Virus record (IMG/VR): IMGVR_UViG_3300020203_000008
Location: 1 to 64,000 of that record
Reading direction: 5' to 3' (one strand)
DNA from: a virus
DNA length: 64,000 nt
Under the pieces are notes generated by a model. The model saw only the letters and a list, made by a program, of their open reading frames with translations, was not told the DNA's origin and ran no database searches. Positions 6,963 to 37,514 of this stretch are shown here, piece by piece. Position 1 is the stretch's first letter; each line of letters opens with the position of its first letter. The position numbers and the translations under genes are program-made.

Positions 6963-7251
6963 GTCATGCTTGGACGGAAGATCTTGGAGATGCGAAGGAA
7001 GTACGTGTGCCCAGTGGCAGACGCGCCATCACTACTCCGAGCTGGTTTCTAAACCAGTTGTAGCGCTTGAACCTAAAAGGTTACGCGTTCCGTCACCCGA
7101 AAGGTTACGCGTTCCGTCACCGATGCAACGTGCGTTGTCAGTCTTTATGGCTGAAGGTCTTAACCCTTCGGATCTCGTGAATAAACTTGACGGTAAGCAG
7201 AAGCCGACCTATGAGCAAATTCGACAGATCAAACGAACTGGAGCGCAATGA
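6946..7251 (+). CDS. hypothetical protein with duplicated 8-aa motif
   Basis: A 101-aa protein that starts with CRSC and CEGSTC cysteines. In the middle it carries the direct repeat RLRVPSPE/RLRVPSP, encoded by a 24-base tandem duplication near 7077-7122. A C-terminal helix (AEGLNPSDLVNKLDGKQKPT) follows. It overlaps both neighbours by a few bases, which supports real coding. Function unknown. Confidence 0.55.
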   Translation: MALTCRSCLDGRSWRCEGSTCAQWQTRHHYSELVSKPVVALEPKRLRVPSPERLRVPSPMQRALSVFMAEGLNPSDLVNKLDGKQKPTYEQIRQIKRTGAQ

Positions 7252-7705: not shown

Positions 7706-7734
7706 TTGACAGCATGCTTCCGGTTCGGTACACT
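7706..7734 (+). promoter_or_regulatory. sigma70-type promoter of the PTH2/suppressor-tRNA module
   Basis: TTGACA (7706-7711), 17-base spacer, TACACT (7729-7734). It predicts transcription from about 7741, giving a ~24-base leader with AAGGAG (7751-7756) before the PTH2 start. Confidence 0.7.
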
Positions 7735-7764
7735 TCAATCGTAATCAAACAAGGAGCAATGGAA

Positions 7765-8130
7765 ATGGAAAACGTTTAGGTAGCACTCAAGGAAGGGGAT
7801 CGGACGTACATCCTTGTACGTGCTGACCTTTCTCCCGGCCAGCAGGCTGTCCAAGCTGCTCATGCCGCATTTAGCTTCTCCCTGGAGCATCCACAGATCG
7901 CTCGGGAGTGGCATAACATCTCCCAGTATCTGGTTCTTCTCGCTGTCCCAGACGTGGAGACGTTGCTGGATTTTGTGACGGATGCCTACGATCTAGGCGT
8001 TCCGTTGTATATGCAGACCGAGCCGGACCTCGGGGACGAAGCGACCGCTTTGGCGCTTGCTCCTTCTGAGGCCGTTCGTCTGCTAGTTTCTCGGCTGCCT
8101 CTCGCGTTGCGTGAGGAGGCTGTCGTGTGA
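7765..8130 (+). CDS. peptidyl-tRNA hydrolase (PTH2 type) interrupted by in-frame UAG
   Basis: From the ATG at 7765 (eight bases after AAGGAG) the frame reads Met-Glu-Asn-Val, then TAG (7777-7779), then 116 uninterrupted codons to TGA at 8128. The product has the PTH2 core: YILVRADLSPGQQ, QAAHAAFSF, YLVLLAVPDVETL and a C-terminal ALAPSEAVRLL. PTH2 enzymes cleave the ester bond of peptidyl-tRNA released from stalled ribosomes. No ATG, GTG or TTG lies in frame between the amber codon and the first core strand, so the enzyme needs UAG readthrough. A CUA-anticodon tRNA lies at 8260. An ATG at 7759 is an alternative start. A sequencing error (CAG or AAG to TAG) is possible. Confidence 0.75.
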
Positions 8131-8170
8131 GTCCTGCCGGGTGGGGGGTCATTCCCTCATCCGGCTCCAA

Positions 8171-8223
8171 GCCCCTGTAGGTATCCAGACCTACCAGACG
8201 TTTAAGTCGTCTCAGGGGCACCA
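8171..8223 (+). ncRNA. tRNA-like structure lacking a normal anticodon domain
   Basis: GCCCCTG (8171-8177) pairs with CAGGGGC (8213-8219), followed by A and CCA, as in a tRNA acceptor end. Directly 5' of the 3' strand is AGACG-TTTAAGT-CGTCT (8196-8212), which has T-arm geometry and a T-loop-like sequence. Between the acceptor strand and this arm is only a small hairpin TAGGT-ATCCAG-ACCTA. It resembles an acceptor/T-arm minihelix. A decayed tRNA gene is the main alternative. Confidence 0.5.
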
Positions 8224-8258
8224 TGGGAGAGAGGGTGTCAAAGCCCTCTCTCCCACCA
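8224..8258 (+). ncRNA. 12-bp minihelix ending in ACCA
   Basis: GGGAGAGAGGG (8225-8235) pairs perfectly with CCCTCTCTCCC (8244-8254), and T8236-G8243 extends it to 12 bp. That is the length of stacked acceptor and T stems, and the 3' strand is followed by ACCA. It abuts the tRNA-like element on one side and the suppressor tRNA on the other. It could also act as a terminator, though no U run follows. Confidence 0.4.
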
Positions 8259-8259
8259 A

Positions 8260-8330
8260 GCGCCCCTAGCACAGTGGTAGTGCAACCGATTCTAACCCGG
8301 TAGACGAGCGTTCGATCCGCTCGGGGCGCA
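8260..8330 (+). tRNA. amber-suppressor tRNA, anticodon CUA
   Basis: A full cloverleaf: acceptor GCGCCCC/GGGGCGC, D stem GCAC/GTGC, T arm GAGCG-TTCGATC-CGCTC, discriminator A, no encoded CCA. The anticodon loop TTCTAAC gives CTA at 8292-8294, preceded by T33 and followed by A37, so it should read UAG. The anticodon stem has four pairs plus an A31-C39 mismatch. The acceptor and A73 closely match the tRNA-Lys(UUU) at 23709, and U35 is shared, so lysine charging is plausible but unproven. Confidence 0.85.
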
Positions 8331-25476: not shown

Positions 25477-25853
25477 GGGTCTGACAGGCTTCGATTGTGT
25501 TATCCGAGGTATGTTTCGCTGGTCGTCCAGAGTAGGGACGTTAAAGAACTCACAAGCCTTAACTGGCAACGCAATGGACAACATCGACGCTGAGTACGAA
25601 GCCCTTGTGGCTTCTTACGAGGGTGCCCTCGTCTAACGAGGGTCGTCTGGGGTAGGTCACCTCGCCTTATTATCCAAAGTGACCCCGTGCCCGGTCGGTT
25701 AACCGTGGCCCGTTCCCTAGAGCTAGGGTGGCACCCCCGAAGGGGCTGACTTTCAGGAAAGACTGAAAATATGGGAGCCATCCCTAAATGGCTATACCAG
25801 TAGACGGACTATTTACGAAGCACAAGACCCCGGTTCGATTCCGGGCAGATCCA
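25477..25853 (+). ncRNA. ssrA: tmRNA (transfer-messenger RNA)
   Basis: The 5' end GGGTCTGACAGGCTTCGATT pairs its first seven bases with CAGATCC (25846-25852) just before the discriminator A. The 3' domain has a normal T arm CCCGG-TTCGATT-CCGGG. A tag frame runs from about GGC 25565 to TAA 25634-25636, encoding a 23-residue peptide that starts Gly-Asn-Ala-Met-Asp and ends Glu-Gly-Ala-Leu-Val. A -Ala-Leu-Val end is also known, from memory, for mycobacteriophage tmRNAs. A hairpin follows the tag stop as in helix 5. tmRNA frees ribosomes from stop-less mRNAs. The resume codon choice rests on an A four bases upstream. Confidence 0.85.
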
Positions 25854-25922
25854 CCGAGGGAACGTTCTGAGAAGCTCACTGAGCGCCACCGCGTATGAGA
25901 TTGGAACCACGGAGAGCGCGAG

Positions 25923-37295: not shown

Positions 37296-37514
37296 GTGCA
37301 GTTCCGGATTGGTGAGCGTGTTCGTAACTTATTGAATGGTGTTGAGGGTACGGTTGTTCAGGTGTTTCCTGACACTTGTGGCCCGAGGCGTGATGGATCC
37401 ACAGTATTAGTTGATTATGATGCTGTGGTAACATTTGAGGACGATGAGGATGTCGTTGTTGTTCCGGCGCGGCAGGGTCATTCGTTTCGTCGCTTCCTAC
37501 AGAAGGTTGAGTAG
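37296..37514 (+). CDS. small beta-barrel-like hypothetical protein
   Basis: 72 aa from GTG 37296 with GGAGGGTC upstream. RIGERVRNLLNGVEGTVVQV and VLVDYDAVVTFEDDEDVVVV look like an SH3/KOW-type barrel, which often contacts nucleic acid. No specific role. Confidence 0.55.
   Translation: MQFRIGERVRNLLNGVEGTVVQVFPDTCGPRRDGSTVLVDYDAVVTFEDDEDVVVVPARQGHSFRRFLQKVE

Follow-up and report, generated by a model that had tools for sequence, protein, structure and literature searches.

Pyrrolysine decoding brings together an in-frame UAG and a tRNA with a CUA anticodon, the two sometimes lying close to each other. In phage code switching, as in the Lak phages, a CUA tRNA of the phage decodes UAG in a host that uses the standard code (PMC9523058, PMC10879173), and it is in this respect that these phages would resemble the system described here. 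Among engineered systems, a synthetic suppressor-tRNA feed-forward leak dampener makes the product of a gene with nonsense codons only when the suppressor tRNA is co-induced (PMC7969014). There are also phage CUA tRNAs with no assigned purpose: the authors of the XacN1 genome sought a target of its CUA tRNAs and found none (PMC5852040), and the authors describing Summit, a standard-code phage, likewise found no target for its CUA tRNA (PMC9022506). A natural amber switch of the peptidyl-tRNA hydrolase PTH2 was not described in the literature that we searched, which included few subscription papers or preprints, and a natural suppressor-gated PTH2 switch appears to be previously undescribed.

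The window analysed here is a stretch of 64,000 nucleotides, part of a 136.6 kb virus record (IMGVR_UViG_3300020203_000008), and it contains 38 tRNAs and a tmRNA. As the initial annotation stated, codon 5 of an otherwise intact PTH2 frame is UAG: the ATG (7765-7767) is followed by GAA AAC GTT, the TAG (7777-7779) and GTA GCA, and the frame then stays open to a TGA at 8128-8130, with no ATG, GTG or TTG between the TAG and the PTH2 core; another ATG in this frame is found at 7759. Read through the TAG, the frame yields a 121-residue protein that is a member of the PTH2 family by its match to Pfam PF01981 (score 35.4 bits, above the cut-off of 23), and a profile search matched it to archaeal and human PTH2 chains. 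An AlphaFold model built on an alignment of 24 window and contig relatives (pLDDT 91.7) has archaeal and human PTH2 structures as its top matches in the PDB, the leading ones at TM 0.66-0.75, which indicates a PTH2 fold; the amber region falls in its low-confidence N-terminal tail. Eight PTH2 residues (R19, Q30, H33, E86, P87, D88, T94 and A95) are invariant among the 24 relatives, and the protein is predicted to hydrolyse peptidyl-tRNA. Searched at the DNA level, the window locus gave no relatives, and the diversity of the alignment of PTH2 relatives (A1) was too high for a pattern search.

Exactly 129 nt past the PTH2 stop codon, as had been annotated, lies the CUA tRNA (Table 1). Both ARAGORN and the Rfam tRNA model recover it as a cloverleaf, with a normal 7-base D-loop and a 4-bp anticodon stem that carries a 31:39 mismatch; its closest tRNAs are only about 70% alike, a similarity that assigns no charging identity. 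The two genes had been placed on one transcript from a promoter at 7706. A promoter-like site is indeed present there, the top of four in the scanned kilobase (0.7 by chance), but a single transcript with the tRNA is not conserved among relatives, because their CUA tRNA often lies upstream, kilobases away or, in XacN1, in the terminal repeats.

Table 1. Features of the PTH2 locus in the window, with CCA-tailed minihelices of related loci
Feature	Position	Strand	Basis
Putative sigma-70-like promoter (TTGACA-17-TACACT)	7706..7734	+	Consensus scan, 10 of 12; function predicted
Shine-Dalgarno AGGAG, 8 nt 5' of ATG 7765	7752..7756	+	Sequence
PTH2 gene, 121 codons + TGA, in-frame UAG as codon 5	7765..8130	+	Pfam, profile, AlphaFold and PDB matches
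Amber codon UAG, followed by G	7777..7779	+	Sequence; relatives with same place and context
Minihelix 1: 12-13 bp stem, loop GTCATT, 3' UCCA	8136..8169	+	Fold
tRNA-like element, one arm missing, 3' ACCA	8171..8223	+	Fold of 8127-8260, z -6.9
Minihelix 2: 13 bp stem, T-loop-like GTCAAA, 3' CCA	8224..8258	+	Fold
Putative suppressor tRNA, anticodon CUA at 8292-8294, 31:39 mismatched, CCA not encoded	8260..8330	+	ARAGORN; Rfam, 60.2 bits
CCA-tailed minihelices, window	8136-8258		
CCA-tailed minihelices, L001	8488-8523, 8651-8684		
CCA-tailed minihelices, L012	2840-2875, 2930-2965		
CCA-tailed minihelices, L015	1840-1875, 1929-1964		

Several structural observations attach to this neighbourhood. 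CCA-tailed minihelices, with stems of 11-13 bp, mostly a T-loop-like GTCAAA and then N-CCA, adjoin PTH2 and the CUA tRNA in a clade made up of the window, L001, Myrna and Phabba, and in this clade tRNA-like elements with one arm missing sit between them; other minihelix matches in 629 kb of loci are without the T-loop-like GTCAAA loop. Across the loci set, and with kinship ignored, a mismatch at the 31:39 pair is seen in 20 of 57 CUA tRNAs as against 18 of 283 other tRNAs. A 4-bp anticodon stem has been tied to readthrough before, but through loss of the pair at the opposite end (PMC13092985). The tmRNA (window 25477-25855), inside a large tRNA cluster, gives the genome a second ribosome-rescue function, and a short tandem repeat, AAAGGTTACGCGTTCCGTCACC(CG), lies within a gene at 7080-7122.

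For comparison, 63 PTH2 loci from phage records and viral contigs were grouped into 41 clusters (hereafter lineages) at 60% identity and read upstream of the conserved PTH2 core. A start codon, usually 0-3 further codons, UAG and then PTH2 is the arrangement in 25 of the 41 lineages. By the stricter definition of a start no more than 12 codons ahead of an in-frame stop, with no ATG, GTG or TTG from the stop to the core, 21 of the 41 qualify, and in all 21 the stop is TAG, although only 28% of the stops upstream in these loci are TAG; the identity of this N-terminal stop is not a matter of chance. Of 33 representatives, 30 have the UAG at one of codons 2-5 and 32 have a purine directly after it, a context favourable to amber suppression. 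Three lineages found later (L217, L221 and L230), new members of the amber clades, all carry the same layout. Judged from these sequences, an amber near codon 3 of PTH2 is spread over many giant and mid-size phages that are unrelated to one another. On the PTH2 tree it needs 4 changes as against 17.5 in shuffles; this clustering suggests an old feature with a few losses, in a tree of short sequences many of whose forks are unsettled. Two scans of genome contigs found no cellular relative and hence provided no cellular control for the amber.

Isolated and independently sequenced phages with an amber PTH2 include GAP32, CBB, BF, XbC2, ME3, Arash, XacN1, RAS14 and the cluster C mycobacteriophages. 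GAP32, CBB, BF, XbC2, Kaldavass and pEa_SNUABM_19 have in common an ATG, two codons and TAG; Acinetobacter phage ME3 reads ATG ACT TAG and Salmonella phage Arash ATG CTG TAG, with CUA tRNAs near both. The C1 mycobacteriophages have ATG TAG GTG, as an exact 30-mer in 156 records, and Myrna and Phabba GTG TAG GTG. XacN1, Stenotrophomonas phage RAS14 and the contigs L069 and L070 encode PTH2 fused to a domain that by eye is HD-like, and these fusions begin with ATG, 1 to 3 codons, TAG and AC, the UAG being codon 3 in XacN1. Existing annotations use internal starts in CBB, GAP32 and XbC2 and have no gene in BF or pEa_SNUABM. The sequence downstream of the UAG is under purifying selection in the GAP32 group (dN/dS 0.03-0.13), and so is the stretch of PTH2 that the annotated internal starts omit (pN/pS 0.09).

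Amber codons also occur in other settings. An extra one lies in one shared loop of the PTH2 core in L009, L066 and L079; it is the only amber of L066, and the other two have the N-terminal one as well. In L034 (at 1715) and L036 (at 3235), a second amber-bearing PTH2 5' end joins HNH endonuclease-like sequence just 5' of the full amber PTH2. Two mini-ORFs with strong Shine-Dalgarno sequences have the amber layout on their own: ATG TTT TAG in C1 phages (L013:2099), 5' of gene 150, and ATG AAG TAG in DLP5 (L216, about position 838), some 430 nt 5' of the CUA tRNA. DLP5, a relative of Summit, was checked for an amber PTH2: the suppressor tRNA is present and PTH2 was not detected.

Linkage to the tRNA was counted for the 33 lineages whose record spans 100 kb or more, with one randomly placed CUA tRNA per genome as the expectation. 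In 21 of them PTH2 has a CUA tRNA within 3 kb, where 0.86 would be expected, and on the same strand in every case. A CUA tRNA is found somewhere in the record in 20 of the 25 amber lineages, being more distant from PTH2 in CBB, BF, XbC2, LR756511, RAS14, XacN1 (in its terminal repeats), L059 and L069. In the five others it was not confirmed: L009 and L049 are fragments, the 148 kb record of L056 yielded none, LR756504 has an ambiguous 8-base loop, and LR745206 gave no CUA call among 59 tRNAs and one degenerate candidate. The 174 kb record of L070, from the HD-fusion group, is also without a CUA tRNA. Between near-identical flanks, the C1 locus holds a CUA tRNA with one or the other of two dissimilar bodies (91 and 99 records), which have the CTTCTAA anticodon loop in common. 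Amber and tRNA are jointly absent from K64-1 and Hallingskeid, which the tree places as sister to the GAP32/ME3/Arash clade: both start PTH2 normally, and none of the 7 tRNAs in each is a suppressor.

We propose, at a probability of about 0.82, that PTH2 is made in these phages through suppression of the UAG by the phage CUA tRNA. Gating by the amber codon, the central suggestion of the initial annotation, has strong comparative support in the repeated placement of UAG at codons 2-5, tRNA proximity, joint absence, the two tRNA bodies and selection across the UAG; suppression itself, the amino acid inserted and a regulatory purpose are inferred. The timing suggested in the initial annotation, with PTH2 low early and rising as the tRNA accumulates, and its feedback loop are conjectural. 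In the window, ribosomes would initiate at the AUG at 7765 and reach the UAG at codon 5, where RF1 would terminate translation unless a charged phage CUA tRNA decoded the codon and so gave full-length PTH2. Were the UAG read only by the phage tRNA, PTH2 output would need both the mRNA and a processed, charged phage tRNA. The arrangement would thus constitute a coherent feed-forward (AND) gate, with PTH2 silent until the phage tRNA supply is functional. PTH2 would probably serve to hydrolyse dropped-off peptidyl-tRNAs, among them short ones carried by the suppressor or by other tRNAs of the phage, so that its dose would track suppressor activity. We lean, somewhat beyond even odds, towards a regulatory gate of this kind, in which enzyme dose is matched to suppressor activity. 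Unlikely, by comparison, is a self-tuning circuit, in which failed decoding of the UAG would shed short peptidyl-tRNAs, some perhaps still attached to the suppressor, and these would be the substrate of the encoded PTH2, so that the enzyme would recycle its own decoder; in the window clade the CCA-tailed minihelices next to the tRNA might then be further substrates or decoys.

The alternative that survives best, though we consider it unlikely, is an addiction device, in which the amber binds a useful enzyme to the tRNA gene and thereby secures retention of the tRNA, with output unregulated. The tight linkage and the differing tRNA bodies with one anticodon at the C1 locus would fit such a device. 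Against it, the tRNA is often kilobases from PTH2, as in the terminal repeats of XacN1 and in RAS14, and clades that lost the amber still keep the tRNA. At least 10 lineages, L066 among them, retain a suppressor tRNA and have a PTH2 without an N-terminal amber. Such a pairing of sense start and CUA tRNA, which had been named as counting against gating, is present in L003, L005, L010, L045-L048 and L224; gating elsewhere stands. The tRNA is therefore not solely for reading the PTH2 codon and may have other roles, and its retention beside an amber-free PTH2 indicates that the link between PTH2 and suppressor is wider than the N-terminal UAG. In three lineages with an amber-free PTH2 (L002, L006 and L019), the nearby tRNA has a UUA (ochre-type) anticodon rather than CUA.

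Initiation at a non-AUG codon past the UAG, or re-initiation after an AUG..UAG leader, would make the UAG incidental or a leader end; we regard this as improbable. It draws on the GTG that adjoins the UAG in C1 and C2 phages, with a Shine-Dalgarno at 7 nt spacing, the ATG directly after the UAG in L041, the ATG often found five codons past it in HD-PTH2 fusions, the UAG-AUU of some AT-rich relatives, AUU being able to start, and the solitary mini-ORFs of C1 and DLP5. However, the 21 lineages of the stricter definition are devoid of standard starts before the core, and the codon after the UAG is not one particular non-AUG codon but varies among GTA, GGC, AAC, AAT, GAA, ACT and others. Purifying selection on the sequence directly 3' of the UAG likewise speaks against a downstream start, which would leave unexplained the exclusive use of UAG, the linked CUA tRNA and their joint absence.

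A genome-wide reassignment of UAG to sense, which would render the PTH2 codon unremarkable, has very little to recommend it beyond CUA tRNAs being typical of code-15 phages and L060 being perhaps recoded, like the recoded control Lak-A1. UAG is an ordinary terminator in the window record, where it closes 30 of the 193 genes called heuristically. When UAG is read as sense, open-frame coverage jumps in Lak-A1, whereas most amber loci gain little, L060 being the exception, and within PTH2 the UAG is confined to codons 2-5 rather than scattered along the gene. Code-15 recoding of the window genome was rejected on its common UAG terminators and small open-frame gain. Backup stops are not enriched behind the UAG-ended genes of the window relative to its other genes, so strong suppression cannot be presumed. 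The TAG-separated frame pairs at 37296, 112004, 116111 and 119502 of the record are apparently ordinary neighbouring genes. Pyrrolysine was rejected as the reading of the codon: a search for pyrrolysyl-tRNA synthetase (PF01409 superfamily) that detected 14 of 14 controls found nothing in the 136.6 kb record, a host source being possible, and the tRNA has neither the long anticodon stem nor the small D-loop of tRNA-Pyl, its ARAGORN label 'Pyl' resulting from the CUA anticodon alone. Finally, sequencing error at 7777, a concern raised by the initial annotation, or a decaying pseudogene has next to no chance of being right, with only the stop codon itself in its favour and against it the same amber in independent isolates and many contigs and a dN/dS of about 0.1 in the GAP32 group.

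Suppression of the UAG by a phage tRNA would offer a target for orphan phage suppressor tRNAs in XacN1 and in the C1 mycobacteriophages, whose annotated PTH2 begins at the GTG that follows the UAG; more generally, an amber PTH2 is a gene that annotation misses or shortens. The gating is open to immediate test in M. smegmatis laboratory phages. It would add a natural, gene-level nonsense switch beside whole-genome recoding and the synthetic versions. For XacN1, the HD-PTH2 fusion is a candidate target of the orphan CUA tRNA; the Summit case differs, its relative DLP5 being without PTH2. In contrast to the pyrrolysine system, the window tRNA is without tRNA-Pyl features and its record without a detected class IIc synthetase. 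Code-switching phages use UAG as sense in many genes, whereas in the window genome it is still a stop and one gene has it near its start. A close parallel is the synthetic leak dampener (PMC7969014), with which the phage system would share the logic of a coherent feed-forward AND gate, here deduced from comparison; the dampener was engineered in E. coli, whereas the phage version is natural and confined to a single gene family, with the UAG at codons 2-5.
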